This document shows positions 39,729 to 58,223 of a stretch of DNA of 64,000 bases, in pieces. Position numbers and translations under genes: made by a program. The notes beneath the pieces were generated by a model. It was not told the origin of the DNA. It was given only the letters and a program-made list of their open reading frames with translations, and searched no databases. Where the stretch lies: positions 1,803,001 through 1,867,000 of the forward strand of contig NZ_VISI01000002.1 in assembly GCF_007827365.1 (NCBI RefSeq), written 5' to 3'. The DNA is from Olleya sp. Hel_I_94. GTDB lineage: Bacteria > Bacteroidota > Bacteroidia > Flavobacteriales > Flavobacteriaceae. Position 1 is the stretch's first letter. The number at the start of each line of letters is the position of its first letter.

Positions 39729-39812
39729 CAAATGTACATGAGATAAGTGCCTTAAATTTGTAATTTAGTTTAACCTATAGCTAAGTGTCGACGAATGGTA
39801 GATTGCTGTAGA
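39729..39812 (-). promoter_or_regulatory. LytTR-type promoter A (receiver-GT2 operon)
   Basis: On the minus strand, box 1 TCTACAGCAA (39812-39803) and box 2 TCGACACTTA (39791-39782) start 21 bp apart. TACCATTCG precedes box 2. After 45 bp comes the -7 element TACATTTG (39736-39729). The start codon at 39698 lies about 30 bp downstream. Confidence 0.75.
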
Positions 39813-39877
39813 TAATTAAAAATGGAAGCACTATTTTATTTATTTATCTTTACCATATATAATAGCGTAAGCTTTAA

Positions 39878-42800
39878 ATGAAGGAAACCTCAAACAAATA
39901 CTTAATCACAGCTATACTTTTAGCTTTAGCATTTCATGGTAGTGCCATATTTTTTACTTTGGAAACTACTTATGATGCGTTAATTCATTTGTTTTTTGCA
40001 GATCATTATGCTAATAGCTGGTTTGAACCTTGGAATTACGAATGGTATACAGGTTTTACCGTACAAAGTTATCCACCTTTAGTACATCAATCCATCGGAC
40101 TACTCTCCATGATTGGTGGTTTAAAATTTGGAATGTTTAGTGTTGCGTTAATTGCTATTGTGCTGTTTGTGACTGGTACTTATCGTTTCTCTTTAATGAT
40201 GACCGCTAATAAAACGGTAGCTGGTTATGCTTGTGTACTGGCAGTATTTAGCTCATCGTTTGTGGAGACGCTTCATATTTTTGGACAATTACCCAGTATT
40301 GTTGGTGTGTCTGTATTAATGCATGCCTTACCCGAAATTTACTTATGGTTAAAAACAGGTAAAAAATGGTATTTAGCAACCTCCTTATCTTTAATAGCAG
40401 TAACGGTAACTTCACATCATGTAACGCCAATTTTTGGAATGATCTTTTTTATCTTCCCTTTAATAGGAATGGTAATTATGGATGTTTCGCGAGAGCAAGT
40501 CAGCACCATGAAAGAAGTGACTTTCAAAATATTTTTGAATAGTTTTTTTAAACTTTTTAAACGTATTGTAAGTTTTGGAATGCTATCATTAGTCTTAATC
40601 GTTGGATGTATTTTTCCATATTGGCTAAACTCTAAAGCCAATCCAATTACTCAGGTTCCAATTCCGCATGGTTCTCGTGATAATTTCTTAGAAATCACAT
40701 CCTCAGGATTAGTCTTCTTTTTAATTCCTTGGGGAATCTTACTAATATTATTACCCTATATTTTTTACAGATATTACAGTAAACGCTACTTGTTTTTTGG
40801 ACTATCAATAACTATTTGTACCATTTTAGGAACTGGAGGAACTACTCCTGTACCACTAAAAATGTTAGGCGAAACTGCTTTTAATATTTTAACCTTAGAT
40901 AGATTTACACTTTGGGCTTCTATATTATCCATTCCTTTAATGGGTGAATTTGTATATCGTTTTGTTGAAGGTGATTTAAAAGAACTTATTCAGTCTAAAT
41001 TTGGTGCTGTTTACCATCGTATTATTGGCGGAATACTTGCTGGACTCATGGTATTTATGGTAGTTTTTACTATGAGTTTAAATTATTTTAGACCTTCGCA
41101 GCCACAAAAAATTAAGATGTTGCCTATTGTTAATTTTTTAAATCAAGATGACCACGATAAATGGCGTTTTTTAACGCTAGGCTTTGGAGATCAAATGGCT
41201 TGGCTAAGCGCGCAAACTAATGCCATGACAGTAGATGGTAATTACCATTCTGCACGTCGATTACCAGAATTAACCACACGACCAATCGAGCGCTTAGAAA
41301 ACTCAAAATTTAAAGGAGTTGCCGGAATTGGATCTTTACAGCAATTTTTAACAACGCCAGAAAAATACAATCTTAAGTACATATTTTCTAACGATAAGTT
41401 TTACGATCCCATACTCTACTTTTGTGGTTGGCAACGTTTACGACAATTAGAAAACGGGATTATGGTATGGGAACGATTAAACATTCCGCCTGTGTCTTCA
41501 ATTTTACCAAAAGAAGATGTTGCCAAATGGGTTAAAATAATGTGGGGAATTATTCCGTTTTTAACCGTTTTAGTGGCATTTGTTTTAAATATTCAAATGC
41601 TTTGGGTTAACGCTTTAAAAACTCGCATAAAACCAGTTACCGAATTTTTAAAATTCCCAACGACCTATAATAAGTTTAATAGAAACGTTTTACGTATCAC
41701 ACACGTTTGGGCATTAATTCTAGCCATAGCTGTGTTTTATGGTATTTATTTGTTTTACTTAAAAAACGATTCGCAACGCAGTCCAGAAAATGCCATTATT
41801 GCCTACTATGATGCGTTAGATTTTAAAGAATTTGAAAAAGCACATAGCTTAATAGATCCCGAAAACAACTTGCCAATAGCACAATATATGCTAGAGATAT
41901 CGGTAACCGATGGGTTGCTAAGTAGCTACGCAAAAATGGATGCTATCGAGACTGAAATAACTAAACATAACGACAGTACAGTATCGGCAAAAGTAACCAG
42001 CCAATGGATTACACCTTTAGAAAAAATTGAAAAAGTGGATTACAAATCGCTATCAAAACGTCAAGGCAAATGGTATTTACAACCTGACGATTTAAATAAC
42101 GACTTACCTCCAGACCAACTCTATTCTGATAACACAACCAAGTATTTTAATCAAGGTCGTAGACGTATTACAACAGAAGCAACACACCATGAAGATATTT
42201 TAAAACAGCCTGTTTTGGAGATCGTTTCAGCTAAATTAGTGAAGTATGATGGTAGTTATGCTATTATTGGAGAAGTCCAAAATGTAGACAATGTACCAGC
42301 AGATGTTATTTTAAAAGGCACCTTGTATAACGATAACAACAAACAACTAGCAACATACAACGCAAAATACCACGTCAAGCATAAATTAATGCCTAAAGAG
42401 TCTAGTAGTTTTAGGATTAATTTTGAAGGTATTGCTTGGTCTAGAACACAAGATTCCATTCCAGACACATTTAATCCAGATGAATTTACTCCAGTTGAGT
42501 TTGAAGAGCAACCAACAAAATTTAACTTACAAGCAGCAGGAAATGTTTCGGGATCTGACTTGTACAAAAACGTTGTACTAAGTGCCATTAGCATTAAAGA
42601 CAGTATTATAAACGGAAACTTATTTAATAGTGGTATCCAAGAGATTACAATACCTCAGCTTTTAGTAACTTACTATGATGAAAACAAAAACATGGTTTGG
42701 GTCGATCATTTATTTGTAAAAGAAGGTGTAAGGCAACAACGCAAACAAGATTTTGAATATCAGATTTTAAAGGACGGTAAAGTTAAAATCATAAATAGTG

Positions 42801-42967
42801 ATATGAAAAATATTTTTGTAAATGGTTTACCAAACGATGCTATAGCTGGAAAAGTCGTTCCTAACAGAATTGAAAACCATAGCGATGCCCAATTACAAAA
42901 AATTGATCATCCTGATTTTAGTTATATTAAAATAGAAATTAACACCTACATAGGAAGTCCAAATTAA
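39878..42967 (+). CDS. Large GT-C-like polytopic membrane protein
   Basis: A 1029-residue protein. Residues 1-640 hold about 13 transmembrane segments with a first periplasmic loop typical of GT-C or 6-pyruvoyl-tetrahydropterin-synthase-related membrane proteins (TTYDALIHLFFADHYANSWF and WEWYTGF-like NYEWYTGFTVQSYPPLV; acidic Asp in the DALIH motif). The C-terminal 390 residues form a periplasmic part: an NTF2/SnoaL-like stretch (about 655-750) followed by two FxxG-type immunoglobulin-like pieces. It may transfer sugars to, or polymerise, a lipid-linked glycan. It is divergent from the receiver-GT2 operon and overlaps the next gene by one base. Confidence 0.7.
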   Translation: MKETSNKYLITAILLALAFHGSAIFFTLETTYDALIHLFFADHYANSWFEPWNYEWYTGFTVQSYPPLVHQSIGLLSMIGGLKFGMFSVALIAIVLFVTGTYRFSLMMTANKTVAGYACVLAVFSSSFVETLHIFGQLPSIVGVSVLMHALPEIYLWLKTGKKWYLATSLSLIAVTVTSHHVTPIFGMIFFIFPLIGMVIMDVSREQVSTMKEVTFKIFLNSFFKLFKRIVSFGMLSLVLIVGCIFPYWLNSKANPITQVPIPHGSRDNFLEITSSGLVFFLIPWGILLILLPYIFYRYYSKRYLFFGLSITICTILGTGGTTPVPLKMLGETAFNILTLDRFTLWASILSIPLMGEFVYRFVEGDLKELIQSKFGAVYHRIIGGILAGLMVFMVVFTMSLNYFRPSQPQKIKMLPIVNFLNQDDHDKWRFLTLGFGDQMAWLSAQTNAMTVDGNYHSARRLPELTTRPIERLENSKFKGVAGIGSLQQFLTTPEKYNLKYIFSNDKFYDPILYFCGWQRLRQLENGIMVWERLNIPPVSSILPKEDVAKWVKIMWGIIPFLTVLVAFVLNIQMLWVNALKTRIKPVTEFLKFPTTYNKFNRNVLRITHVWALILAIAVFYGIYLFYLKNDSQRSPENAIIAYYDALDFKEFEKAHSLIDPENNLPIAQYMLEISVTDGLLSSYAKMDAIETEITKHNDSTVSAKVTSQWITPLEKIEKVDYKSLSKRQGKWYLQPDDLNNDLPPDQLYSDNTTKYFNQGRRRITTEATHHEDILKQPVLEIVSAKLVKYDGSYAIIGEVQNVDNVPADVILKGTLYNDNNKQLATYNAKYHVKHKLMPKESSSFRINFEGIAWSRTQDSIPDTFNPDEFTPVEFEEQPTKFNLQAAGNVSGSDLYKNVVLSAISIKDSIINGNLFNSGIQEITIPQLLVTYYDENKNMVWVDHLFVKEGVRQQRKQDFEYQILKDGKVKIINSDMKNIFVNGLPNDAIAGKVVPNRIENHSDAQLQKIDHPDFSYIKIEINTYIGSPN

Positions 42968-44184
42968 TGCCATTTAAACACACATACATATTTGTGATAG
43001 GTCTGATTTTATTATCATCGTTTGCTGTTGTACAACAAAGCGAGAAGACTAATCCTATCAAATTAGTAACAACACTAACAAATTATAATGTTGGCAAGCC
43101 AATTGTTTTAAAATTTACTACTTCAGAAGGCGAAAAACCATTATTGTATTGTTCAAACAGTTATGGATCTACTTTAGTTTCGGCTATAGCCAAAGATGGT
43201 ACACTTCAATATATAATTCCGGAAAACATAACCAAAAAAATTGGTGTGGTCAATTGGATAGTATTAGACAAAAATAAATCTGCGTCTGGTCAATTTAATA
43301 TAAATCCAAAAGCAGAAGTTGCAACCATGGAAACTTATATTGGACCTCCAAGTATTGAGGCTGGAGCAACAGATTACGCCATGCTGGTTGTTATACCTAC
43401 AGATTCTTTAGACAATCCAGTGCCAACAAACACTAAAGTTGATGCTAAATTTCAATTTTTAGCTTCAGAAGAAAAAGAGGTCATTTTTACAAAAAATTTG
43501 ATTTCTTATAAAAACATTTATTCTAAAAAAGAAAGTGGACGCATGTTAGTGTCATCAGAAAGTTTAGGAGTTAATTCCAAAGAGTTTACCATTAATGTTT
43601 GGGCTGCAATTCCTACAGATTTTAAAATTTCGGCAAAAAGACCACATAATTACGCAGACGGAAATCAGGTTACCACGTTTAACACCACAGTAATTAAAGA
43701 CAAGCAAGATAATGTGGTTAGCGATGGGACTTTTGTTACCTTTTTTATTACCAACACTAGTGGAAATATTTTAAAAACTACAGGTACAACAATTGAAGGA
43801 GTGGCACATGCAAAAATTATTCATCCTGATTTTAAGGATAATTGGAGTATTAAAGCCTATGTTGATGGCATGGCAGAAAGCAATACAATTACTTTAAGTT
43901 ACCAACGCGTTATTGAAGATTTTGAGGTTGCTTTTGCCAAACAAAATCGCGAAATTTTAGTAGGTCCATTACAAAGTTTTATGAAGCAAATGATTCCGGA
44001 TGGCTTGCACGTCAAACTTTTAATTTACAAAGACAATGTGCTTATTGACACCATTATAAAAACATCTTTTAATGGGTATGTTACTTTTAATTTAAAGCCT
44101 GCTGTTTATCAAAACGACACCTATAGTTTTAGTGTTGAAACTGCTGGAATAAATAAAACATTTAATAACAAAAAACTATGGTAG
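42967..44184 (+). CDS. Exported Ig-like domain protein
   Basis: A 405-residue protein with a signal peptide or anchor (HTYIFVIGLILLSSFAVVQQ). The rest looks like several immunoglobulin-like beta-sandwich domains (repeated patterns such as PIVLKFTTSEGEKPLLY, TFVTFFITNTSGNILKT). I find no catalytic motif and no sorting domain. It is translationally coupled to the genes on both sides (1-bp and 7-bp overlaps), so it probably forms an envelope complex with the polytopic protein and the GH5-like protein. Its function is unknown. Confidence 0.7.
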   Translation: MPFKHTYIFVIGLILLSSFAVVQQSEKTNPIKLVTTLTNYNVGKPIVLKFTTSEGEKPLLYCSNSYGSTLVSAIAKDGTLQYIIPENITKKIGVVNWIVLDKNKSASGQFNINPKAEVATMETYIGPPSIEAGATDYAMLVVIPTDSLDNPVPTNTKVDAKFQFLASEEKEVIFTKNLISYKNIYSKKESGRMLVSSESLGVNSKEFTINVWAAIPTDFKISAKRPHNYADGNQVTTFNTTVIKDKQDNVVSDGTFVTFFITNTSGNILKTTGTTIEGVAHAKIIHPDFKDNWSIKAYVDGMAESNTITLSYQRVIEDFEVAFAKQNREILVGPLQSFMKQMIPDGLHVKLLIYKDNVLIDTIIKTSFNGYVTFNLKPAVYQNDTYSFSVETAGINKTFNNKKLW

Positions 44185-45692
44185 GTCTTAACAAAAACAT
44201 ACTACGTACCATATTAATAATCTCATATATTATGATTGTAGCCTTAATAATATCTGGTATTAGTGGGCTTTTTAGCTACTTAAACACTGGAGCAGACAGA
44301 AGCACAATGCTACATACCGAAATACAAAAAATAGAACAATATGCTCCAAAATTAATTTGGGAACCTTTAAATAACGAAGGCAGACCAATGGATAACGAAA
44401 ATCTAAATGCACTTCAAAACAACTACTTGGACGCTTGGTATGTTAAACAAATAGCATATCAAACCAATAAAACTGCTGGTATAAAAGATTATTATACTGA
44501 TAGCGCTAGAGAAAACTTATATGCATTTATCGAATTAAACAAAGCTGAAAACACGACCATTGAAGCCACAACATTAAACCACAAACCCACTTTAGAGTTT
44601 TTTAGTGAAGATGGACAGTTGGCTGTTGTTACCGATAGAGATGTTGTAGAATATAAACGTGTTTTTAAAGCTGAAAAACTAGTCCTAGAAACAACAGAAA
44701 CCTCAACTTATAAAATGGTGTTTTTATTAGAAGATGGTTTTTGGCGTATTAGACATCTTGTTAAAGAAAGTACTAAACCGTACTTACCAGAAATAGCAAA
44801 AATTGAAACTGATAGTTTAGTTATTAAAGGAATTAATTATTACCCAAAAGCGACACCATGGAATATGTTTGGTGACGCTTTCGCGAAAGACACAATTGCT
44901 AACGACTTTAAAATCATTAAAAATGCTGGCTTAAATTCGGTTAGGATTTTTGTGCAATATGATGACTTTGGAAAAGCTAAGGTTGATCCTAAAAAGTTAG
45001 AAAAACTAAAACACACTTTAGATGCTGCAGAAGAGCAAAACCTAAAAGTAGTAGTTACGTTATTTGATTTTTATGGTGATTATTCTGTAATGAATTGGAC
45101 CTTAAACCAACGTCACGCAGAAACTATAGTGTCCACTTTTAAAGACCACAACGCTATTATTGCTTGGGATATTAAAAACGAACCTAACCTAGATTTTGAA
45201 TCTAGAGGAAAAGATATGGTTATCGCTTGGTTGGACAATATGATTGACTTGGTAAAATCTATAGACAAGGTACATCCTGTAACTATTGGTTGGTCAAACA
45301 CCCAAAGTGCACCAATTTTAAAAGATAAGGTAGATATTGTTTCGTTTCATTATTATGAAGGCTTAAGCGAATTGGATGCTGCAATAAAAACCATGCAAAA
45401 CCAAATACCAAACAAACCATTAGTATTACAAGAGTTTGGAATGTCATCTTACAATGGTTTTTGGAAACCTTTAGGAAGCAATGAAGAAGATCAAGCTAAT
45501 TACCATAAAAAAATACAAGAGATTATTGCTGCTAATAATTTACAATTTATGTCTTGGACGTTGTATGATTTTGTAGACGTACCAAAAGCTGTTGTAGGTA
45601 TCAGACCTTGGCGTAGAAATACCCAAAAACATTTTGGGTTTATTGATAAAAATGGTGTAAAAAAGGCATCGTTTAAATATATTACTAACTAG
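44178..45692 (+). CDS. Membrane-anchored GH5-like (cellulase-fold) hydrolase
   Basis: A 504-residue protein with one N-terminal TM anchor (about residues 9-31), a linker domain (about 60-205, NTF2-like) and a TIM barrel (about 210-500). Clan GH-A catalytic residues are visible: acid/base Glu335 in WDIKNEPNLDF and nucleophile Glu419 in LVLQEFGMSS. NSVRIFVQYDDFG and VSFHYYEG fit the family. It should face the periplasm and trim or transglycosylate a beta-glycan, in the way that hydrolases accompany exopolysaccharide secretion systems (BcsZ, AlgL). A CG-rich palindrome (44876-44889) lies inside the coding region. Confidence 0.82.
   Translation: MVGLNKNILRTILIISYIMIVALIISGISGLFSYLNTGADRSTMLHTEIQKIEQYAPKLIWEPLNNEGRPMDNENLNALQNNYLDAWYVKQIAYQTNKTAGIKDYYTDSARENLYAFIELNKAENTTIEATTLNHKPTLEFFSEDGQLAVVTDRDVVEYKRVFKAEKLVLETTETSTYKMVFLLEDGFWRIRHLVKESTKPYLPEIAKIETDSLVIKGINYYPKATPWNMFGDAFAKDTIANDFKIIKNAGLNSVRIFVQYDDFGKAKVDPKKLEKLKHTLDAAEEQNLKVVVTLFDFYGDYSVMNWTLNQRHAETIVSTFKDHNAIIAWDIKNEPNLDFESRGKDMVIAWLDNMIDLVKSIDKVHPVTIGWSNTQSAPILKDKVDIVSFHYYEGLSELDAAIKTMQNQIPNKPLVLQEFGMSSYNGFWKPLGSNEEDQANYHKKIQEIIAANNLQFMSWTLYDFVDVPKAVVGIRPWRRNTQKHFGFIDKNGVKKASFKYITN
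44876..44889. repeat. Variant of the dispersed palindrome (CGCTTTCGCGAAAG)
   Basis: It contains the perfect 12-bp palindrome CTTTCGCGAAAG and is one base shorter in the middle than the TTTCCGCGAAAGCG copies. It lies in the GH5-like gene and encodes AFAK. Confidence 0.5.
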
Positions 45693-45730
45693 TAGCAGAT
45701 AGCTGTTTAAATAGTTTTATAAAAGCAAAA

Positions 45731-45837: not shown

Positions 45838-47085
45838 CTATTCTGCTGAAGCTGGCTCTAAAACCACTGCTTTTTGACTCATTTTTCTTAGGGCTTTTTT
45901 TGGTGATTTAGTTGCAATGATAGCATCAAAGTTATTAAGGTACATATCTGCAATTTTTTCCATTGGGTAGGCTGTTGCAGCTTCGTAGTTTGCTTTACCT
46001 AAAGCTATTCTGTGTGCTTCATTTGTTACTATTGCCTCAATTGCATTTGCTAAACTTTCTACAGAAGTAGGCTCAAAAAATTCACCTCTATAACCTTCAT
46101 CCTTTACTAATAATGCAAGGTCACCTAAATCTGGCATAACAACAGCTTTACCATAACTTCCTGCTTGGTGTAAAACACCAGAGCTTCCTGTTGTTGACGT
46201 GTATGGAAATACAACTACTGCACTTTCTTTAAACAAGGTTGGTACTTCAAATTCTTCAACATATCCTGTAAAACGCACTTGTGGCACATGCTTATAATCT
46301 TCTTGCACTTTTGCTAAATAACCTGGTACGTTTGGGTTGTCTGTTCCTGCTATTACAACTTCTAGATCTAATCCAGTTGAAGCTCTTACTTTTTCAACCG
46401 CTTCAATCATACCCTCTACTTTTTTGTAAGTTCCAAATTTTCCAAAAGTCATAACTTGTAAAGGTCCTTGTGGCAAATCGTATTCTGGCTTTTCTTCAGA
46501 GATTTCAAAAGTTCCGTGCGGAATTAATGTCACATTTTTCACCTTATACTTTTTCTCTAAAATATCAACATATTTTTGCATTGTTACCGCAACTGTATCT
46601 GCTTGTAAGATTAGCTTTGTTAAGCTTGTTCCTATAAAACCATAAACTTTTTGCATAATTTTGCTACTTGTAAATCCAGCAGATCCTAAATCTACTTCTT
46701 CTAATATATTATGCAATAACACGATATTAGGAATTTTTTTAAGTTTACAAACTAGTGGTAACATTAATCCTAAAGCTGCAGCTATTTTTTTGTCTCCAAA
46801 CTTCATGAATTGTAAGTTAAATAAAACTGCATCTGGCTTAGTCTTACTGATAGCTTTAGTTACATTTATAATGTTTGTGTAGCTATTAAACGCCCAACAC
46901 TCTTTAACTGTTATTTTACAACCATCTTCTGTAAAAGCAATGTCTTTTGCGCCTTCTGTTTTATCTGTTAATAAAACAATCTCAGTTACATTTTCTTTTT
47001 GTCTAAAGTGCTTTACTAAATGGTAAGCGTACTCATTTAATGTTACTTTACTTGGTGGATATGCTGTTACGATTGCTAGTTTCAT
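45838..47085 (-). CDS. Group 1 glycosyltransferase (GT4-like, GT-B fold)
   Basis: A 415-residue GT-B enzyme: N-terminal KLAIVTAYPPSKVTLNEYAY, central VTLIPHGTF, and C-terminal VMTFGKFGTYKKVEGMIEAV and VFPYTSTTGSSGVLHQAGSY, with the nucleotide-binding EX7E region around the last segment. It would add a sugar from a nucleotide donor to a growing lipid-linked glycan on the cytosolic face. It has its own LytTR-type promoter (47124-47207), with a 5' leader of about 32 bp after the predicted start site. Confidence 0.87.
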   Translation of the reverse strand: MKLAIVTAYPPSKVTLNEYAYHLVKHFRQKENVTEIVLLTDKTEGAKDIAFTEDGCKITVKECWAFNSYTNIINVTKAISKTKPDAVLFNLQFMKFGDKKIAAALGLMLPLVCKLKKIPNIVLLHNILEEVDLGSAGFTSSKIMQKVYGFIGTSLTKLILQADTVAVTMQKYVDILEKKYKVKNVTLIPHGTFEISEEKPEYDLPQGPLQVMTFGKFGTYKKVEGMIEAVEKVRASTGLDLEVVIAGTDNPNVPGYLAKVQEDYKHVPQVRFTGYVEEFEVPTLFKESAVVVFPYTSTTGSSGVLHQAGSYGKAVVMPDLGDLALLVKDEGYRGEFFEPTSVESLANAIEAIVTNEAHRIALGKANYEAATAYPMEKIADMYLNNFDAIIATKSPKKALRKMSQKAVVLEPASAE

Positions 47086-47396
47086 TTTTATGTGTTTTAA
47101 TATGTTGTTTCTTAATTACACTACAAATTTGCGTTATTTAAGACACTAATTAAGACCTCTTTAGACAGATTGCAAGTTACTGTAGACGAATGGTAAAAAG
47201 GTGTCGTTTTACCATTTAACGTGTTGACTTTCAAAAGAAAAAAACCAACAAAACTTATACTATTATTTAAACTACTATAATATAACATTAAGATAAACAT
47301 TTTAATATCCACTTGCAAAATACTTACAACAGAAAAAGCCATGGTTTAAAACCATAGCTTCTTCATTTATAATAGACTAATAAAATAAATTACTTT
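47086..47396 (-). other. 311-bp intergenic region with regulatory site
   Basis: This stretch between the flippase stop and the group 1 GT start holds the LytTR-type promoter B in its left third. The rest is AT-rich with no convincing gene; a 73-residue reverse frame (47121-47342) spans the regulatory site and has no coding signature. Confidence 0.6.
47124..47207 (-). promoter_or_regulatory. LytTR-type promoter B (group 1 GT)
   Basis: On the minus strand, box 1 ACGACACCTT (47207-47198) and box 2 TCTACAGTAA (47186-47177) start 21 bp apart, with TACCATTCG before box 2. After 45 bp lies CAAATTTG (47131-47124), a -7 element with one mismatch to TAnnTTTG. Confidence 0.72.
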
Positions 47397-48641
47397 TTAT
47401 TTTTTCATTTTAGACTCAAAAACAAAGAAGATCACTTGGATGACCAATAATGATACCATTGCTATTATTTGCATGTGTACGACTTGCTCTAAACTGTCAT
47501 GAAAAAAGATAACTAATCCCATTTGCAACATTCCGAAGACTCCAGATATTACCACAGGAATATATCTATCTAATGATAAATAGTAGTATGCAAAGATGTT
47601 TGATATGGCAAACAAACCAGTTGCTAAAGCATACTTCCATAATAAAGGCGCCATAGTTAGATAACTATCTCCAAATAATATAGTAATTGCAGTTTCTGGA
47701 AATAAAGCACAACCAATAACTATTGCAGTTGCAATTGCTGCAATGTAACCAACGTATTTAAATAAAATTGGCGCTGTTGCTTTTCCTTCTTTTTTAAGTT
47801 GTACCACTGTTGGTAATGAAAGCATAATAAACATCCATGCTACAAAATATACAATACGACCTATTAAGGCTAGTGATGCATACAATCCTGCGTCGTAAGC
47901 GTCAAAGTAATGCTTAACTAATAAGATGTCACTGTTGTTGATTATAATCTGTGTAAACTCGTAAAACGCTGTGATAATAAAAAAGCTTTTTACTTGTTTA
48001 GATTGACTTGCTTCTATAGCAATAGTTTTTTTGAAGTTTAAATTTTTAAATTTAAAAGGCACTAATCCAAATCCAAAAGAAATTAAAATTCCGACTGCAA
48101 TAACAACCGATGATTGTATGTCAAATAAAAAAATTAAAGCTAACGTAATAACCAATCGGCTTAGCATTTCGGCTTGATAGGTAATGGATAAAGACTTGAA
48201 TTCTTTTTTACCCTGAAACACACCTCTGTTTACACTCATTAAAAAATAAAGTGGTACTCCTACTCCAAAAATGGTAAACATACTAGAAGATGATGTATTA
48301 AAAAGAGCTTGTAATTGATTTGCAAACACGATAATTAAAGCACCTAAACCTAATCCTACAATTGTCGCATTTTTGTAAATTTTTGAGATAAAATTTTTAA
48401 ACGTATCGTTTTCAAAAACTACCGAGAATTTTGCAGTCACTAATTGAAACGTCATGGCTACAAAAGATAGCACTAACAAAAAGGTAATTAACACAGCTGC
48501 ATCTGCAAATTGTGCTGGACCTAACACACGACCTAAAATAAGATTGTACAAATAGTTTCCTCCATTTACTGCTAATACGCTAAGCATAAATAATTGCTCT
48601 GGAGATATTTTTTTTGTTTTTAATATAGATAAAGCTTGCAT
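47397..48641 (-). CDS. Polysaccharide flippase (MOP/Wzx-type)
   Basis: A 414-residue inner-membrane protein with about 12 TM segments and the pattern of oligosaccharide flippases: GNYLYNLILGRVLGPAQFAD (N-terminal motif), GVFQGKKEFKSLS, and FDAYDAGLYASLALIGRIVYF. It should flip a lipid-linked glycan to the periplasmic face. It follows the STAS gene by 28 bp on the same transcript, which starts at LytTR-type promoter C. The group 1 GT and TPR-barrel genes are neighbours. Confidence 0.87.
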   Translation of the reverse strand: MQALSILKTKKISPEQLFMLSVLAVNGGNYLYNLILGRVLGPAQFADAAVLITFLLVLSFVAMTFQLVTAKFSVVFENDTFKNFISKIYKNATIVGLGLGALIIVFANQLQALFNTSSSSMFTIFGVGVPLYFLMSVNRGVFQGKKEFKSLSITYQAEMLSRLVITLALIFLFDIQSSVVIAVGILISFGFGLVPFKFKNLNFKKTIAIEASQSKQVKSFFIITAFYEFTQIIINNSDILLVKHYFDAYDAGLYASLALIGRIVYFVAWMFIMLSLPTVVQLKKEGKATAPILFKYVGYIAAIATAIVIGCALFPETAITILFGDSYLTMAPLLWKYALATGLFAISNIFAYYYLSLDRYIPVVISGVFGMLQMGLVIFFHDSLEQVVHMQIIAMVSLLVIQVIFFVFESKMKK

Positions 48642-48669: not shown

Positions 48670-48948
48670 TTAGGCTACTTGTGGATATACAAATGCTTCG
48701 TAAATTTCTTCACTTCTGTTACCTTCAACAAAAAACATTTTCTGGTTTGCTACACCTTTAACATACATTGCTTTTAAAGTTTGTAATGCACAAGCATCCA
48801 TATCTGTAACCTTATCAATGTTTAGTGTTACACTTTTAAATGCGTTTAGTATAAAGCCAAAATGTGTTGTAAAATTATTGATGGTTGCAGTGTTTAAGCT
48901 TCCTTCTAAAATAATTGTGTTGTCCTGTTGTGTAATTGTTAATGCCAT
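48670..48948 (-). CDS. STAS-domain protein (anti-sigma antagonist-like)
   Basis: A 92-residue STAS domain: ALTITQQDNTIILEGSL, TLNIDKVTDMDACALQTL and VEGNRSEEIYEAF. In classical SpoIIAA-type proteins the phosphorylated residue is the first or second Ser of DSSG; here the aligned D-A52-C53-A54 has no Ser, so phosphorylation control is probably lost. It may act as a docking or regulatory subunit for the flippase or a glycosyltransferase. I choose ATG 48948. An in-frame ATG at 48990 falls inside the predicted -7 box and adds 14 low-complexity residues. Confidence 0.78.
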   Translation of the reverse strand: MALTITQQDNTIILEGSLNTATINNFTTHFGFILNAFKSVTLNIDKVTDMDACALQTLKAMYVKGVANQKMFFVEGNRSEEIYEAFVYPQVA

Positions 48949-48987
48949 AATTGTTATATTTAAATTGTTATTGTCTGATTTCTGATA

Positions 48988-49071
48988 CAAAGATGCGACG
49001 CAAACCTCTGAAGGACTGTTGAATTTCGATGAGTGGACGATTGGTGTAGATGAATGAATGGATATGAATGC
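48988..49071 (-). promoter_or_regulatory. LytTR-type promoter C (STAS-flippase operon), degenerate
   Basis: On the minus strand, box 2 TCTACACCAA (49050-49041) is preceded by ATTCA (others: ATTCG). Exactly 45 bp later is CATCTTTG (48995-48988), a -7 element with one mismatch. Box 1, expected at 49071-49062, reads GCATTCATAT and does not match, so only one half-site is convincing. The spacing is what supports it. Confidence 0.55.
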
Positions 49072-49100
49072 CTAACTTGCAATTGATTTAAAACTGAAAC

Positions 49101-51165: not shown

Positions 51166-52449
51166 TCACTTTTTAAAACCCAACGTTTTATAAACCCATT
51201 CCATAACAAAGCAAAATAAGATAATACCTAAAGCCACCATAACACCAGTAACGTTAGTTTGAAATTGTTGGATAATAAGTGTACAAAAAGCCAATAAGCA
51301 TAAAACGCTTGCTATTAAATGAATGGACTTATTAGATACTAATTCTTGATGTTTTTTAAAACCAATGTAATTAACCAAGCAAAAAATTAATAAAAAACCT
51401 GCGCTACCAGCTGTGGATATACTTTCTAAATTGAATAAATTTACCAAGATTATTGATAAGATTGCTGTCACTAAATACCCAATAGGTTTACCCCAAAACA
51501 TATGACAAAAATAACGTGGTAACTCTTGATCTTCAGCAATATCATAATTTACCCTTCCGCTTCCTAATATGGTAGCATTAATTGCTGAAAAAGTAGAAAT
51601 CAATGCAGTAATAGTAATTATAGTAAATCCTATTTGCCCCAAAGTAGGTGCTGCTGCTTCTGCTAAAACATAATCTTTGGCACTTGCTATTTTGTCAAAA
51701 GGTAAAGATCCTACAGTAACAATTGCAATTAAAATATATAAGACAACTACAAAACCTACTGCTCCAAAATAGGCTTTTTCAGTATTTTTTTCTCGGTTTT
51801 TTAAATCTGAAATAGAGTTTGCAATTAGCTCAAAACCTTCATAAGCAACAAAAATTACCATTCCGCCAGATAGCAATAAAAAAGGACTCTCCCAATTACT
51901 AGGTTGTAATTGATGTACATTTTCTGAATGTAAAAAAAACCCATAAAACCCAACACCTATAAATACAACTAATATTAACAGCTTGACAATCACTGCAACA
52001 GACTCAATACGACCAACTAAACTTACACTTAGATAATTAATAGCTAAGGCCAGTACAATTATTGACGTTTGACAAATACGGACATCTAGATATTTATCAC
52101 CTGTAACACTAAATAACTCGGAAGCATAAGATCCAAATGCGGAAGCATACAACGCTAACATCACGATATAACTTATCCAAAGCAAATTATTTATTCCGCC
52201 AGCAAAAATCCCGCTACAATATTGTTGGTGGACAAATCTAACAGTCCCTCCATTTTCTGGAAATTTTTTAGATAATTTAGCATAGGAATATGCTGTTAAT
52301 AACGCAATAATACCTGCAAACGAAAAAGCAACAGGTGTACCTCCTTTAGCTAATGACACTGCCAACCCAAGAACTGCAAATATTCCGCCTCCAACCATAC
52401 CTCCAATTCCTATAGAAATAGCGTCTTTTAAAGTTATTTGTTTACTCAT
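51166..52449 (-). CDS. APC-family amino acid permease
   Basis: A 427-residue transporter with about 12 TM segments. It has the APC-type start DAISIGIGGMVGGGIFAVLG, with the GxGxxGGG-like unwound helix 1, and SFAGIIALLTAYSYAKLS. Substrate specificity (amino acid, amine) cannot be inferred. It converges on the TPR-barrel gene with a 4-bp gap and does not look functionally linked to the glycan genes. Confidence 0.85.
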   Translation of the reverse strand: MSKQITLKDAISIGIGGMVGGGIFAVLGLAVSLAKGGTPVAFSFAGIIALLTAYSYAKLSKKFPENGGTVRFVHQQYCSGIFAGGINNLLWISYIVMLALYASAFGSYASELFSVTGDKYLDVRICQTSIIVLALAINYLSVSLVGRIESVAVIVKLLILVVFIGVGFYGFFLHSENVHQLQPSNWESPFLLLSGGMVIFVAYEGFELIANSISDLKNREKNTEKAYFGAVGFVVVLYILIAIVTVGSLPFDKIASAKDYVLAEAAAPTLGQIGFTIITITALISTFSAINATILGSGRVNYDIAEDQELPRYFCHMFWGKPIGYLVTAILSIILVNLFNLESISTAGSAGFLLIFCLVNYIGFKKHQELVSNKSIHLIASVLCLLAFCTLIIQQFQTNVTGVMVALGIILFCFVMEWVYKTLGFKK

Positions 52450-52809
52450 TTACATTTTAATTTAAGTATTAAAGATAATAAATAACAAAAAGATGTTACA
52501 AATACTAAGTAGCTAAAGTTTTAAATTCTATTAAAAAAAGCTATGAGATTAATCATTGAACGATTTTATTAATTTATATTGCTTTTAAACAAGAACATTC
52601 AACGTTGTTTTAACCAAACTTAATTAATAATCAGATACAATAAAAAGAATAAAAACTAAAAATATTGCTGTGATATGTTATTTTAACTGATAAATATTCC
52701 TTTTAACAGATGCTTATTATTATATTTACTTTAAAAAATACTTAGACACTAAAAATCAACAAATTACACTCGATAAGCCCTAACTTATTAGTACTGAACA
52801 ATTACTTAC
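52450..52809. other. 360-bp divergent promoter region
   Basis: AT-rich region between the permease (minus) and the PAS kinase (plus). I see no gene, no LytTR-type box and no convincing TAnnTTTG element. TATATTTA near 52720 is a weak candidate for the kinase promoter. Confidence 0.5.
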
Positions 52810-54324
52810 ATGAAAGAACTTTACAATCAGTTATTTCAAAAACATACGACTAAAGACAATATTAGTTACACCTACATGGACTCTTTACAAAGAGACATAG
52901 CTATTGGATCTTGGGAAGTTAATCTCCAAACCAATAAAGCTACATGGAGCGCCATGACTAGAACTATCCACGAAGTAGAGCCAGAATACAAACCAAGTTT
53001 AGAAGAAGGTATCAACTTTTTTTTAGAAGGTTATGACAGAGAATTAATAAGCATCCTATTTGATCGCGCTATTAAAAATCAAGAACCTTATGATAATGAG
53101 GTACAACTAAAAACTGCTAAAAACAATATTAAATGGGTACGTATTGTAGCTTATCCTGTTATAAAAAATAATAAAACTGAAAAAGTTATAGGTGTCATTC
53201 AGGATATTACCGAAAAAAACAATACACTTTTAGAACTTAAACTAAAGGAAGAACTAATTAGAACCACGTTTGACAACGCACCTAATGCTATGGCATCAAT
53301 TAATTTGGATGGTCAAATACTAACATTAAACAATAGCTTTAGCGACTATTTAGGCTACAGCAAGGAAGAGCTTTCCGGCTTCCCTATTAATACGTTATCA
53401 CATCCAGAAGATGTCGATTTAGTACAACAAAACTCAAAAGACTTAGTCGCAGGTAAAAGCAATAAGTTTCAGTGTGAAATACGATACATTAAAAAAGATA
53501 AATCCATAATAAACTGTTTATTGTCTGTTTCTATTTTAAGAGATGAAAACTATAAACCTGTACATTTTATATTTCACCTTATTGATATAACAAAAAGAAC
53601 AATTGCTAGTAAAAAAGTGGAGTTACTGTTAAAAACCACAAAACAGCAAAATGAAAGGTTACTTAATTTTGCACATATATTATCTCATAACTTAAGATCA
53701 CATTCTGGAAACATAGAAATGTTATTAGATTTAATGTATACAGAGGTCCCTGAAGCCACAAATAACGAATTTGTTCCATTAATATTAGAAGCTGTAAATA
53801 AACTAAGCGAAACCATTGATAACCTAAACGAAGTATCTACCATTAGCGCAGATAATAACGATGATTTGCAACCTTCCAATCTTTTAGATTACACAAAAAA
53901 AGCTTTAGCAAACTTTAGCGCAGAAATTAAAGAAACCAAAGCCATAATTAATATAGATATAGAAGAGGATATTTATGTATTAGCAATACCTGCTTATTTG
54001 GATAGCATTTTATTTAATTTTATATCCAATGCCCTAAAATACAGACATCAGGATAGGACACCTAAAATAAATTTAAGCGCAGAGCAAACAAAACACTATA
54101 TTAAAATTGACATTGAAGATAATGGACTTGGCATTGATTTAAATTTACATAAAGATAAAGTTTTTGGCTTATATAAAACCTTTCATAATCACAAAGACGC
54201 TAAAGGTTTAGGTTTATATATTACTAAAAACCAAATTGAAGCTATGCAAGGAAAAGTAAAAGTTAAAAGCATTATAAACAAAGGAAGCGTTTTTTCTATA
54301 TATTTAAAGTATGAAACAAATTGA
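52810..54324 (+). CDS. PAS-domain histidine kinase
   Basis: A 504-residue kinase without TM segments. It has two PAS domains (about residues 20-140, ending GVIQDITEKN, and about 150-265, ending FHLIDITKRT). A DHp domain has the H-box FAHILSHNLRSHSGNIEML, with the phospho-acceptor His, and a HATPase_c domain has NFISNALKYRH (N-box), IEDNGLGID (G1) and KGLGLYITKN (G2). Cytosolic. It overlaps a single-domain receiver gene by 14 bp, its likely partner. The signal sensed by the PAS domains is unknown. Confidence 0.9.
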   Translation: MKELYNQLFQKHTTKDNISYTYMDSLQRDIAIGSWEVNLQTNKATWSAMTRTIHEVEPEYKPSLEEGINFFLEGYDRELISILFDRAIKNQEPYDNEVQLKTAKNNIKWVRIVAYPVIKNNKTEKVIGVIQDITEKNNTLLELKLKEELIRTTFDNAPNAMASINLDGQILTLNNSFSDYLGYSKEELSGFPINTLSHPEDVDLVQQNSKDLVAGKSNKFQCEIRYIKKDKSIINCLLSVSILRDENYKPVHFIFHLIDITKRTIASKKVELLLKTTKQQNERLLNFAHILSHNLRSHSGNIEMLLDLMYTEVPEATNNEFVPLILEAVNKLSETIDNLNEVSTISADNNDDLQPSNLLDYTKKALANFSAEIKETKAIINIDIEEDIYVLAIPAYLDSILFNFISNALKYRHQDRTPKINLSAEQTKHYIKIDIEDNGLGIDLNLHKDKVFGLYKTFHNHKDAKGLGLYITKNQIEAMQGKVKVKSIINKGSVFSIYLKYETN

Positions 54325-54721
54325 ATCAGCTTGTCTAATTGACGACGACCACATCTTTATTTTTGCTGCTAAAAAAATTTTATTAGCTACAGATATATGT
54401 CAAAATTTTACAGTTTATAACAATGGAGCTGATGCTATTTCAGGCTTAACCGAAATTATTAAAACCGGAAAAAACGTTCCTGAATTAATATTACTAGATA
54501 TTAATATGCCAATAATGGATGGATGGCAATTTTTAGATGAATTTATTAAAATTAAATATCCCAAAAAAGTTACACTATACATCGTTAGTTCTTCAATCGA
54601 TCCTGTAGATATTAAAAAAGCTAAAGAGTATGAAGCTATTACAGATTTTATAATCAAACCCATTACACGAAAAAACTTGATTAATATGGTGTCTACTGTA
54701 TCTGCAAACGAGCAAGATTAA
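54311..54721 (+). CDS. Single-domain response regulator
   Basis: A 136-residue protein that is only a receiver domain: CLIDDDHIFIF (acidic cluster Asp11-13), LILLDINMPIMDGW with phospho-acceptor Asp63, YIVSSSIDP and IIKPIT (Lys motif). With no output domain it must act by protein-protein contact. It could be the acceptor of the adjacent kinase and pass phosphate on to an Hpt protein such as the one at 59071; that link is inference. Its start lies within the kinase gene. Confidence 0.9.
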   Translation: MKQIESACLIDDDHIFIFAAKKILLATDICQNFTVYNNGADAISGLTEIIKTGKNVPELILLDINMPIMDGWQFLDEFIKIKYPKKVTLYIVSSSIDPVDIKKAKEYEAITDFIIKPITRKNLINMVSTVSANEQD

Positions 54722-54778
54722 AGTTAAACACCTTTTTATTATCAAAGAAAAAATAACAGCAAACTTCTTAAATAAAAA

Positions 54779-54806
54779 AAGGGCAAAAGATTTCTCTTTT
54801 ACCCTT
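54779..54806 (-). terminator. Terminator of the T9SS cargo gene
   Basis: AAGGGCAAAAGA (54779-54790), loop TTTC, TCTTTTACCCTT (54795-54806): 11 of 12 pairs, with a C-A mismatch. On the minus strand it is followed by a run of seven T, so it ends the gene at 54883. Confidence 0.75.
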
Positions 54807-54882
54807 AGTGAGTAACCAACTGTATAAAGCTATTATTAGTTATTAGGTTACCACGTATCAATCAACAAACTAAATGAAATTG

Positions 54883-57498
54883 TTACTTTATTAGCAACTT
54901 TAAGGGATTGTAATGTGTTTTAGCACTTGATAATTTACAGATATATAATCCAGAACTTAAATTTTGTCTGCTTAGTGCTATCTGGTTTTTACCAACTTGT
55001 GCTTTTATTGTTTTATTATAAACTACTTTACCTAACTGATTGTAAATAACTAACTGTACTGTTTCAGATTGGGTAGTAGTAAAATATAAATTTGATGTAT
55101 CCACCATTGGATTTGGGTAGGCTGTAATACTATTTTCTAAACTTGTTGTCTCAAAATCATTAACAGATAATGTTGTCCCTCTAGAAAAACGCACATCTTG
55201 TAAATTCATTTCTTTAGTCACAGTACTTCCATCTTCACTAACCATAGTAAAAACAATAGTAACAATGTCATTTGCATCTAAACCTAATGATAAGGTAGAT
55301 GTGAAATCAGCAAACGAAAGTGCGTAGTTTTGAAAATTATCTGTTAAAGCAATAGTGGTCTTGTATTGTTCTTCCCAATTGGTAATACTTTGCTTCACTA
55401 ATGTAATCTCTAAGTTTCCTGTTCCTTTAGCTTTTAATTTAAGACTATTAAAATCTGTTAAATCAACAGCTTTAAAACGTGGTGTTATCGCTCTGTAAGC
55501 TGCAAAATAAGTGCTTGTGGTTGCATTAAGCGTCACATTACGTTCAATTGGAAAATCTAAACTATTAAATGTAGTCGTGTTTTCTGTAACATTATAATTA
55601 TTGACGTTAGTAGACACCTGAGAGTCATCAAAACCCCAAGGACCATCAGACATAAATAAATCATCAGGAGTATTAATTCCATCTCCAATTCTAAATCCAA
55701 TATCAAATAAATGTCCTGTTGGTACTGTTATCTCTGTAATGTAATTTTCGTTTAAATCAAGACTGCTAGACGTGTAGTTAAAATCACTAGTTTCAGTAGT
55801 TCTAAAACCAGAATCAAAAGCAACAGTGTTAGTCGCATTTGTATTTATTATTTGAAGATCTAAAGCACCATTGTTATATTTTCCTTTTCTAACAAATACA
55901 GTTGGAGGCGTTGATAGTTGATATTCCGAAATTGGCTTTACCGTATCCAATAAGTTTAACACCTCTTGAGCTAAATTATATAAATCATCAATTGAGTCTG
56001 ACCAAATTTGGAAATTATAAAACGTTACATCTGATTGATATAAATCTAAATTCCAATGTGACTCTATTGCAAAATTAGCATCAGCATTGTCTAATTTAGC
56101 CGACAAACTTAACACATACTCAAAACTACCATCAGCGTTTTTAATAATTGATTTAATAAACGGTTGATCGTTGATAGCTATGGTTGACACCGAAATTAAC
56201 TCGGCTCCCAATAATCTATCACAGATATATTTTGTGTGCTCATACACACCATTTTCTGTTTTTAAAGCTAAAATCGAAGCAATTGAAGCACCTCCTTGCA
56301 TGTAGTCTACTGAGTATACCTCTGTAGCGTTAGTAATATTTAGTAAGTCTAAAGGTGTTGAGTCTATTGCATAATCTTCATTAATAGTTGTTAATGGTAT
56401 AAAATCTTGTAATTGAAAACTAGTACTTGCTGATCTATAATTAGAATACAAATTACTTGTATCTCTTGTTACACGTTTTGCAGATTTCTGGTCAAATTTA
56501 TAACTTGATTTTGCTCTATTAAAATTACGTTTATTAATTGCTTCAGACAATCTTCCGTTACTTTCTAAACCACCATCATTAGCTGTAGTTGGAGGTGCAA
56601 TTACATCACAACTTCCAAATCCAGAACAAGATGGATCTTCACAATCAATTAAACCATCACCATCATCATCAATACCATTATCACAAATTTCTTGTGCTAC
56701 TGGAGCAGTAGGACAACGTGCACCATCATTACTTGCACTTGAAGGACCAAAAGCAAATAAGTTAGAATCCATCATAGTTGAAGGCGTTACATCCTGTACA
56801 TTTTGGATAACATATACTGTTCCTGTTTGATTAGCAGACACGTAAAAACGACCATCTGCATCAAAATAAACAGCTCCATAAGTATAATTTAATCCTGACA
56901 AAATTGGCACTTCACCTAAAGCCTGAACAGTACTTGTAGTTGGATCAATACGGTATAAAATATTTGTACTTTTTTCTACTGCATATAAATTTCCATCCAC
57001 TGCATTAAAAGCCCAATCGTGAATACTAATATTTTGAGATAAGTTTTCTGTAGATAAATATTGTGTATATGTAGCTGAGCTTGGATCTAAATCTACTTTA
57101 AAATAACTAGTTCCACCTGCTTTAAAATAATAAATTCCGTCTGGACTAATATCTCCAACATATTTATTTCCTGAGGTCAACTCTGGAATAGTAAACGTTG
57201 TTGTTTGAAAATCGCTACCAATTCTTACTATTGTTTGAGATGGCGAGCTTAAATAACCCCAAATAAATCCATCAGCTGGGTTGTAAGCTGCTGCATTAAT
57301 ATTACCTGGAGTAATATCCTTAGCTGCTAAAAAAGCATTACCAGAAGCTAAGTCAACAGCATAAACATCATTATACTGAAATAAATACGCACTATAATCA
57401 CAATTAAAAGGTGTGTCTTGTGCTAGACTAGAAACGCTTATTAATAGTATTGCTAGTGCTGATATTTGATTTTTAATAGAGTGTAATATTTTAGTCAT
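54883..57498 (-). CDS. T9SS-secreted surface protein with carbohydrate-binding-like domain
   Basis: An 871-residue protein. It has a signal peptide (ISALAILLISVSSLAQ), a beta-propeller-like region (about residues 30-250, DUF6923 type), a calcium-binding segment (EICDNGIDDDGDGLIDCEDP, about 268-287), a long middle region of unknown fold (about 330-620), a CBM11-like beta-sandwich (about 640-780) and a C-terminal T9SS type A sorting domain (ITAYPNPMVDTSNLYF onward, about 790-871). I see no hydrolase motif, so it looks like an adhesin or a glycan-binding scaffold. Its promoter is the best example of the LytTR-type motif. Confidence 0.82.
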   Translation of the reverse strand: MTKILHSIKNQISALAILLISVSSLAQDTPFNCDYSAYLFQYNDVYAVDLASGNAFLAAKDITPGNINAAAYNPADGFIWGYLSSPSQTIVRIGSDFQTTTFTIPELTSGNKYVGDISPDGIYYFKAGGTSYFKVDLDPSSATYTQYLSTENLSQNISIHDWAFNAVDGNLYAVEKSTNILYRIDPTTSTVQALGEVPILSGLNYTYGAVYFDADGRFYVSANQTGTVYVIQNVQDVTPSTMMDSNLFAFGPSSASNDGARCPTAPVAQEICDNGIDDDGDGLIDCEDPSCSGFGSCDVIAPPTTANDGGLESNGRLSEAINKRNFNRAKSSYKFDQKSAKRVTRDTSNLYSNYRSASTSFQLQDFIPLTTINEDYAIDSTPLDLLNITNATEVYSVDYMQGGASIASILALKTENGVYEHTKYICDRLLGAELISVSTIAINDQPFIKSIIKNADGSFEYVLSLSAKLDNADANFAIESHWNLDLYQSDVTFYNFQIWSDSIDDLYNLAQEVLNLLDTVKPISEYQLSTPPTVFVRKGKYNNGALDLQIINTNATNTVAFDSGFRTTETSDFNYTSSSLDLNENYITEITVPTGHLFDIGFRIGDGINTPDDLFMSDGPWGFDDSQVSTNVNNYNVTENTTTFNSLDFPIERNVTLNATTSTYFAAYRAITPRFKAVDLTDFNSLKLKAKGTGNLEITLVKQSITNWEEQYKTTIALTDNFQNYALSFADFTSTLSLGLDANDIVTIVFTMVSEDGSTVTKEMNLQDVRFSRGTTLSVNDFETTSLENSITAYPNPMVDTSNLYFTTTQSETVQLVIYNQLGKVVYNKTIKAQVGKNQIALSRQNLSSGLYICKLSSAKTHYNPLKLLIK

Positions 57499-57524
57499 GA
57501 TGTAGTTGTTTATTATTTACAAGA

Positions 57525-57607
57525 CAAATTTACTTGTAATTCTTGCTGGAAAACTCGTTTTTCGATTGATGCTTTGTAAGTGTAGACGAATGGTAATTAA
57601 CTGTAGA
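57525..57607 (-). promoter_or_regulatory. LytTR-type promoter D (T9SS cargo gene), best match
   Basis: On the minus strand, box 1 TCTACAGTTA (57607-57598) and box 2 TCTACACTTA (57586-57577) start 21 bp apart, with TACCATTCG before box 2. After 44 bp comes TAAATTTG (57532-57525), a perfect -7 box. The spacer also holds AATCGAAAAAC and TCCAGCAAG, shared with promoter E. Confidence 0.8.
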
Positions 57608-57623
57608 TAAACTAATTTTACGT

Positions 57624-58118
57624 TTATAGTTTTACAAAAATATTAGTAAAATAGTTTTTACCTTCTGCATCTTGTTTTGTGGATATACCAATGTTTGTTG
57701 CTTCTGGGTTTTCTATATTTTCTCTGTGACTTTCGCTATTTAACCAAGCATTAACTAAAGCTTGCGCATTACTAAATCCAAAAGCAACATTCTCTGAAAC
57801 TGTCTTTGCATTAACCGTTTGTTTTAGGTTTTGAGAACGTAAATAAAAATAGTCATGACTTGGTGTACCTTGAGTAACCATATATTGATTATGATCAATA
57901 GCTTCTTTTGAAGCTTCATTTAAAATAGCCAAACTTGATAATCCTTGAGAAATTCTGTAATTATTAATCAACTCTATAATCTCATAATCCAATTGCGTGT
58001 ATGATACATCTGCGATTGTAGCACTATAGCTTTCAGGTGTATTCACCTCTTCCTCTACAGAACAAGACATTAAAAAAATATTGAATAATACAATTAGGGT
58101 TACAGTTAGTTTTTTCAT
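57624..58118 (-). CDS. CAP/SCP-domain lipoprotein
   Basis: A 164-residue protein with a lipobox (NIFLMSC, Cys19) and a CAP (SCP/PR-1) domain (about residues 45-160). Motifs include IIELINNYRISQGLSSL, SENVAFGFSNAQALVNAWLN and SESHRENI, with the conserved His/Glu cavity residues in SESHRENI and IDHNQYM. Bacterial CAP proteins are surface or envelope proteins of uncertain function. It is expressed from LytTR-type promoter E. Confidence 0.87.
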   Translation of the reverse strand: MKKLTVTLIVLFNIFLMSCSVEEEVNTPESYSATIADVSYTQLDYEIIELINNYRISQGLSSLAILNEASKEAIDHNQYMVTQGTPSHDYFYLRSQNLKQTVNAKTVSENVAFGFSNAQALVNAWLNSESHRENIENPEATNIGISTKQDAEGKNYFTNIFVKL

Positions 58119-58139
58119 CTTTATTTAGTTATTTGATGA

Positions 58140-58223
58140 CAAAACTAATTTTAAAGCTTGCTGGATTTATAGTTTTTCGATTAGTGCATTTTAAACTATC
58201 GACGAATGGTAATAATCAACAGA
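58140..58223 (-). promoter_or_regulatory. LytTR-type promoter E (CAP lipoprotein gene)
   Basis: On the minus strand, box 1 TCTGTTGATT (58223-58214) and box 2 TCGATAGTTT (58202-58193) start 21 bp apart, with TTACCATTCG before box 2. After 45 bp comes TAGTTTTG (58147-58140), a perfect -7 box. The spacer shares AATCGAAAAAC and TCCAGCAAG with promoter D. Confidence 0.75.

Follow-up and report, generated by a model that had tools for sequence, protein, structure and literature searches.

The question raised by this locus is which regulator acts on a set of look-alike promoters, and to which signal it responds. The promoters lie in a 64,000-nucleotide stretch of the genome of Olleya sp. Hel_I_94 (contig NZ_VISI01000002.1, positions 1,803,001 to 1,867,000; hereafter the window). 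An earlier note, made from the letters alone, had described five minus-strand promoters (sites A to E) with two tandem boxes and a fixed distance to a -7 element, and had assigned them to the LytTR response regulator encoded at 58344. The present computations established the sites, their geometry, their conservation, their rarity in the genome and their co-occurrence with an H-NOX gene, and tied them to the 58344 LytTR gene rather than to the other 11 of the genome. Two further sites, F and G, were found outside the window, and the seven promoters share a three-part switch that is very probably thrown by one regulator.

The three-box promoters and their link to one LytTR gene

The strongest common element was TACCATTCGTCKACA, which occurred exactly at 39786-39800, 47181-47195 and 57581-57595 and with one mismatch at 58197-58211. 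The boxes were read as TACCATTCGTCGACA in A, TACCATTCGTCTACA in both B and D, and TACCATTCGTCGATA in E, with starts 21 bp apart; this spacing and the -7 elements quoted earlier (Table 1) were confirmed by direct reading. Site C had a strong box, ATTCATTCATCTACA, and a poor upstream box, with CATCTTTG located 49 bases past the strong box, the same distance as elsewhere, just as had been described. The subdivision of the motif had to be changed. Comparison of the relatives' promoters revealed that the proposed box (TCTACA) and the proposed end of an 11-bp spacer, TACCATTCG, form one 15-bp box, TACCATTCGTCKACA. The two-box layout was incomplete as well: the tandem boxes 21 bp apart stood, but a third box, for example CTAATCGAAA, followed 21-22 bp downstream, with a distance to the -7 element constant within 1 bp. 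Box 3 occupies about the position of a -33 element, which agrees with the earlier observation that no common -33 element is seen.

The periodicity was also found in the relatives' promoters, grouped by the gene that they precede. The mean match to the core TTCGTC[TG]ACA, with a background median of about 2.7-2.8 of 10 over offsets, was best at +21 (7.2) and then +42 (4.4) for the operon promoter. The top offsets were -21 (6.6) and +21 (5.0) for GT1 promoters, -21 and +21 (5.7 both) for STAS promoters, and +22 (6.1) and -21 (5.4) for CAP promoters. The promoters have core boxes of about 9 bp in direct repeat, with gaps of 10-13 bp and thus a period of about 21 bp, as in LytTR-type promoters, and +21, -21 or +22 was the highest offset in four of the five promoter classes.

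As mismatch-pattern searches were too weak alone, a full-promoter profile was built. This sequence-only profile, R1, covered 98 positions. Of 56 sites selected from named loci, the three of L060, a locus of the window's own genus, were set aside, and the other 53, all from other genera, formed the training set. In the unfiltered window, R1 ranked A to E first to fifth with 63.7-40.3 bits, followed by a sixth match of 11.2 bits, demonstrating that the five promoters with a common layout are real. The genome has 3,557,447 bases in two contigs, and the top 150 of its 6532 first-look candidates were scored (the best 106-150 in each of the other genomes). The top seven rows were A to E, G and F, all with an expectation value (E) <= 1.2e-7; after them came F's first box alone (E 0.003) and the next separate place, C2:1867908 (E 0.05). 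The earlier note had named in advance, as a test of its reading, whether the motif with its -7 spacing is common at unrelated genes; with seven places in 3.56 Mb it is not. The proposed five-site regulon was retained for A to E and has to be extended by F, the promoter of the LytTR operon, and by G.

The pattern searches agreed with the profile at high stringency. With at most one mismatch, TACCATTCGTCKACA was found at six places in the genome (A, B, D, E, F at C2:1867593 and G at C2:986410) versus one for the reversed pattern. Looser patterns gave no clear excess, with 14 real versus 20 control matches in the whole genome at up to two mismatches, and five matches in the window versus 1.97 expected at up to three, a number reached by 7 of 100 shuffles. 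The evidence therefore comes from the exact core and the full layout.

Conservation at orthologous promoters was examined in 80 named loci, the best 80 of 561 relatives, with LytTR proteins of 78-95% identity and from Lacinutrix, Winogradskyella, Psychroserpens, Algibacter, Dokdonia and other genera. The motif CCATTCGTCKACA, with at most two mismatches in the 300 bp upstream of a gene, was present ahead of the first operon gene in 75/77 loci, versus 0/77 for the reversed motif. The two misses were L133, where this gene is not an orthologue (33%), and L118, with a degenerate box; the first gene was absent from three short contigs. The motif was also found upstream of the DUF6923 (51/64), CAP (13/15), GT1 (29/38) and STAS (27/31) genes. 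This outcome passes the second check set in the earlier note, presence of the motif at the orthologous promoters of genomes that keep the LytTR operon. It was not detected upstream of the genes inside the operon (H-NOX 0/75, NosP-like 0/51, second histidine kinase 0/80, Hpt 0/80, LytTR 0/80) or of a TPR gene (0/51). The reversed motif gave one match each for LytTR, DUF6923 and RRGT2, the response regulator-GT2 fusion behind site A, and none for the others. As the homologues of RRGT2 (67% identity) in the best 80 loci had no motif (0/8), the conservation of site A rests on its counterparts in five sister genomes.

Some further genes carried the motif and were rejected as targets. For RRsolo it was present in 17/23, but at a median identity of 27% these were taken as matches on the CheY-like gene; PASHK1 (4/77), Wzx (6/42) and up102 (3/11) were not counted.

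The presence of the sites followed that of the 58344 gene. Among ten genomes of the genus, the six with an orthologue (own genome included; 89-100% identity) had 4-7 box matches each, 31 in total versus two for the reversed pattern, and the four genomes without it had none (reversed, 2) and nothing in R1 below E 0.019; G006 of this test is 75% complete. Olleya marilimosa CAM030 also has an orthologue of the gene. The 12 LytTR proteins of the Olleya genome were each compared with all 84 LytTR loci of the nine sister genomes. Only the 58344 protein matched the pattern, with at least 89% identity in 5/5 sister genomes with sites and at most 38% in 4/4 without, which supports its predicted control of the sites. 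The family test covered 49 genomes, namely 21 carriers of an orthologue (at least 63% identity) and 28 others. R1 sites at E <= 1e-3 were detected in 20/21 carriers versus 1/28 others (Fisher 1.5e-11), and those at E <= 1e-6 in 18/21 and 0/28. G017 and G045, which match L117 and L126 at 100%, were treated as duplicates of those assemblies; leaving both out gave 12/13 carriers versus 1/24 others outside the genus.

The LytTR operon and its predicted signal

From site F onward, the operon encodes a CheY-like receiver, H-NOX, a PAS histidine kinase, a protein with FIST N and FIST C domains, a second histidine kinase, an Hpt-like protein and the LytTR regulator (Table 1). Judging from position, it would form a single transcript with F as an autoregulatory site. 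The earlier reading had not included site F just outside the window, the third box, or the genes for H-NOX and the NosP-like protein farther upstream in the operon.

The HNOB domain and the conserved haem-pocket residues identify the second protein as H-NOX: H104, Y133 and S135 were kept in 76/76 rows and H102 in 74, and position 137 was R in 71 and K in 5. The His residue is presumably the haem ligand, and we take the YxSxR motif to be part of the haem pocket. The protein aligned over 179 aa to PDB 6bdd/6bde (E about 1e-94), the H-NOX of Kordia algicida and the closest solved homologue, for which structure and simulation are at hand and, to our knowledge, no regulon is known. The PAS kinase gene, located directly downstream, had a match in 78/80 loci, a figure that may include cross-matches to other PAS kinases. 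The FIST protein scored 58.1 bits versus the NCBIfam equivalog cut-off of 450, so that a strict NosP assignment was rejected and the protein is named NosP-like only. The Hpt-like protein kept both H55 and H59 in 81/81 rows.

In the mechanism that we propose, the sites would be operator-promoters of the 58344 regulator. Its LytTR domains would bind three direct-repeat boxes about 21 bp apart on one face of the DNA, the last about at -33 and followed by the -7 element, and the regulator would substitute for the missing -33 contact and activate transcription. H-NOX and the NosP-like protein, as putative nitric oxide (NO)-sensing haem proteins, may tune the two histidine kinases, from which phosphate would pass via the CheY-like and Hpt-like proteins to LytTR, an order suggested by the parts present. 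LytTR would then control its own operon through F and the polysaccharide and secreted-protein genes through A to E and G. As the operon encodes an NO-sensor protein, these sugar-coat and secreted-protein genes may respond to NO. The model as a whole, an autoregulated NO-sensing phosphorelay with LytTR output to the genes behind the sites, is considered likely.

The signal is the step at which an alternative deserves most attention. It is possible, although rather unlikely, that the LytTR regulon holds while the H-NOX and FIST proteins respond to redox state, to O2 or to some other ligand, or do no more than modulate a relay that the PAS kinases drive. The first kinase has three PAS stretches, the NosP-like gene was not found in 29 of the 80 loci, and a review raises the possibility that some H-NOX groups sense redox state or sense without haem (PMC8738867). 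An NO signal is favored by the conserved haem pocket and by the distribution of H-NOX, which was found in 20/21 carriers and 0/28 others of the family genomes, so that all 20 H-NOX genes found belong to carriers; 19 of them are located no more than 5.3 kb from LytTR. The solved homologue 6bdd, named Ka H-NOX in PMC7356049, was simulated there with NO, CO and O2. Several findings weaken the sensor and relay assignments. The Hpt match is below the Pfam cut-off (Table 1), and the NosP-like gene, found in 51/80 loci, scores far under its cut-off and encodes a putative haem binder. H-NOX was found in 75/80 loci; four of the five loci without it are short contigs, and L083 lacks it though its contig is not short there. 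G014 (90% complete) keeps LytTR and the sites with no H-NOX found, and G020 has H-NOX and LytTR on different contigs.

Other explanations for the sites

An improbable explanation is that another LytTR protein, or another DNA-binding protein, owns the sites and the neighboring LytTR operon is a mere target. The genome has 12 LytTR proteins, binding by the 58344 protein is a prediction, and site F would be expected at a mere target too. Nevertheless, none of the other 11 genes tracks the presence and absence of sites in the genus, and outside the genus 13 of the 14 site-bearing carriers have a site within 5.7 kb of the 58344-type gene. The link to the 58344 gene itself meets some opposing observations. 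The co-occurrence counts and the Fisher value ignore shared ancestry. Carrier G027 showed no R1 site in the profile scan, the sites of carriers G018 and G020 are marginal (E 3.2e-4 and 9.6e-4), as is the one of non-carrier G012 (E 4.7e-4), and in G011 the R1 sites and LytTR occupy different contigs. The 15-base pattern alone gave a weaker contrast outside the genus (12/15 versus 7/24 genomes), with 21 real versus 10 control matches in carriers.

Returning to the promoter geometry, it is very improbable that the layout marks promoters read by an alternative sigma factor instead of operators of an activator. The profile sites for DUF6923, CAP, GT1 and STAS had been selected for a -7-like element, and the spacing was therefore judged on a sample not selected for it (the DUF6923 logo was drawn from 49 of 51 sites). 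The commonest offset was 48-49 bp from the middle box to the -7 element, placing the boxes just upstream of the promoter core, and paired offsets of box 3 and the -7 element were +22/49 for CAP, +21/48 for DUF6923 and +21/49 for both GT1 and STAS. This nearly fixed spacing of 48 or 49, common to several promoters, would suit a sigma factor class. The element [TC]AnnTTT was located 49 bases past the strong box in 13/13 CAP, 21/29 GT1 and 6/27 STAS promoters, the last being the weakest class. In DUF6923 promoters, the offset was 48 in 22/51 and 69 in 22/51, and in operon promoters 69 in 22/75 and 70 in 8/75. As 69 is 48 + 21, we read these promoters as having the same layout with the strong box first instead of in the middle, and such a shift of the register by a whole 21 bp speaks against a sigma factor class, as do conserved elements that recur with a 21-bp period and extend about 90 bp upstream. 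The -7 element also resembles what we take to be the ordinary Bacteroidetes one, TAnnTTTG. The three-box reading has weak spots of its own: the DUF6923 promoters were less clear, +21 merely tying with +17 (4.6) and -21 ranking fourth (3.9), and box 3 is weaker, its spacing shifting by 1 bp.

Chance resemblance among AT-rich intergenic regions, for which the loose patterns without clear excess could be cited, is hardly credible given the exact core, the full profile and the orthologous conservation.

Target genes and comparable systems

The plain reading of the genes behind the sites is a regulon of surface-polysaccharide and secreted-protein genes, as predicted from their domains (Table 1). 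Site G precedes a gene for a protein of 1550 aa, in which a LamG-like domain was found together with a weak match to a type IX secretion system (T9SS) tail (24.3 bits, cut-off 27); the site and its gene have a counterpart in G009.

Table 1. Predicted operator-promoters, their downstream genes and the LytTR operon; coordinates are those of the window unless prefixed.
Feature	Position	Strand	Description	Support
Site A	39726..39815	-	three-box operator, -7 TACATTTG; upstream of response regulator-GT2 fusion gene	R1 44.5 bits, E 6.9e-13 in window
Site B	47120..47216	-	three-box operator, -7 CAAATTTG; upstream of GT1 gene	R1 53.1 bits
Site C	48985..49077	-	three-box operator, poor box 1, -7 CATCTTTG; upstream of STAS-domain and flippase-like genes	R1 40.3 bits
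Site D	57521..57615	-	three-box operator, -7 TAAATTTG; upstream of DUF6923 gene with T9SS tail	R1 63.7 bits
Site E	58136..58232	-	three-box operator, -7 TAGTTTTG; upstream of CAP-domain lipoprotein gene	R1 49.6 bits
Site F	C2:1867517-1867611, just past window's right end		LytTR operon's own promoter	genome profile scan
Site G	C2:986402-986481, distant from window		upstream of secreted-protein gene	genome profile scan
Gene behind A	38514..39698	-	response regulator receiver fused to GT2 glycosyltransferase	Pfam
Gene behind B	45838..47085	-	GT1 glycosyltransferase	Pfam
First gene behind C	48670..48948	-	STAS-domain protein	PF01740 E 5e-5, 23.5 bits vs cut-off 22.6
Second gene behind C	47397..48641	-	polysaccharide flippase-like protein	PF13440, PF01943
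Gene behind D	54883..57498	-	DUF6923 protein with Por secretion (T9SS) tail	Pfam
Gene behind E	57624..58118	-	CAP-domain lipoprotein	PF00188 E 7.7e-17
LytTR	58344..59057	-	LytTR response regulator, proposed binder	PF04397 E 1.8e-21, PF00072 E 1.8e-18; presence/absence pattern
Hpt-like	59071..59388	-	Hpt-like phosphotransfer protein	PF01627 E 7.9e-4, 20.1 bits vs cut-off 24.6
Second kinase	59375..60439	-	histidine kinase (HisKA + HATPase)	Pfam
FIST	60439..61572	-	FIST N + FIST C protein, NosP-like	PF08495, PF10442; NCBIfam NosP E 8.1e-16
PAS kinase	61575..63533 (L136:3575-5533)	-	histidine kinase, three PAS stretches, 652 aa	Pfam
H-NOX	63533..64000, continues past window's right end (L136:5533-6072)	-	H-NOX (haem-NO-binding) protein	PF07700 E 3.6e-38

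The layout was compared with known systems. The usual target of a LytTR protein is a pair of 9-bp direct repeats 10-13 bp apart, and regulation is mostly activation from a place upstream of -35 (PMC11347149). The same source describes the CO-sensing LytTR proteins RcoM, with three boxes and 12-13 bp gaps, and CoxC, with three repeats overlapping -35. They resemble the present system in three boxes and in the sensing of a diatomic gas, CO there and, as predicted, NO here, but are one-component regulators, whereas here a receiver-LytTR protein shares its operon with separate H-NOX and FIST proteins and kinases. If the model is true, gas sensing would be linked to three-box LytTR operators in one more system besides these two. 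AlgR, a LytTR response regulator of Pseudomonas aeruginosa, has the core CCGTTCGTC, which by eye shares 8/9 bases with the box core CCATTCGTC, and polysaccharide promoters (algD, algC) are among its targets; its sites need not be direct repeats 12 bp apart (PMC4064291), and it belongs to another phylum with another sensor. HdrRM and BrsRM of Streptococcus mutans likewise combine an autoregulated operon, direct repeats at the promoter and further targets, but have paired repeats and a membrane inhibitor in place of a phosphorelay (PMC6193735).

On the sensory side, H-NOX or NosP tunes histidine kinases in Vibrio, Shewanella and Legionella. In Vibrio, phosphate passes via the Hpt proteins LuxU and SypF, and the H-NOX-HahK system of V. 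fischeri reaches exopolysaccharide genes. In Vibrio and Shewanella, H-NOX or NosP in the NO-bound state inhibits the kinases that it partners, whereas NosP-NO stimulates the Legionella kinase (PMC6769237, PMC8738867). These systems belong to other phyla, have no LytTR output in the descriptions compared, and vary in sign. By analogy with most of them, in which NO inhibits the kinase, NO would lower expression here; the Legionella NosP would predict the opposite. NO also acts on the LytTR regulator AgrA, by S-nitrosylation of C199 in its LytTR domain (PMC6769237). Residues 145-234, the LytTR domain of the present protein, include no cysteine, and this route is thus unlikely at the DNA-binding domain.

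Within titles and abstract openings of the LytTR and H-NOX literature on Flavobacteri/Bacteroidetes, a coverage outside which most subscription journals lie, the regulon was not found described. No paper matching the box letters was on LytTR by title, and in the papers joining LytTR and H-NOX, the LytTR passages deal with AgrA and a general list. We lean towards a broader view in which Flavobacteriaceae co-inherit an autoregulated NO-response module, with a multi-step relay, two haem-type sensors, LytTR output and three-box promoters acting on polysaccharide and T9SS-secreted surface proteins. If true, it would provide marine Flavobacteriaceae with a complete and testable signaling circuit, from sensor, kinases, relay and regulator to DNA sites and targets. 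It would also connect the sensing of NO with secreted proteins and surface polysaccharide, both of them likely to be relevant to life on algae and particles.

Several minor observations were made on the sites and their surroundings. A weak eighth three-box-like site (C2:1867908-1867999, L136:6908-6999, minus strand; E 0.05) lies some 300 bp upstream of F, where a small open reading frame starts, with a stronger match at a similar place in the sister genome G002 (E 2.3e-4). G002 also has an R1 match (C22:686703-686784, L291; E 3.2e-4) before a large secreted-looking protein gene, a possible further regulon member there. The receiver-GT2 fusion directly behind A is a glycosyltransferase that may itself be phosphorylation-controlled. 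On the opposite strand within the regulon cluster, 52810-54721 (+) encodes a PAS histidine kinase and a solo receiver with no strong R1 match of their own. At 32936-35041 (+), one open reading frame combines a BlaR1-type M56 peptidase domain with a CHU_C type IX secretion signal domain.

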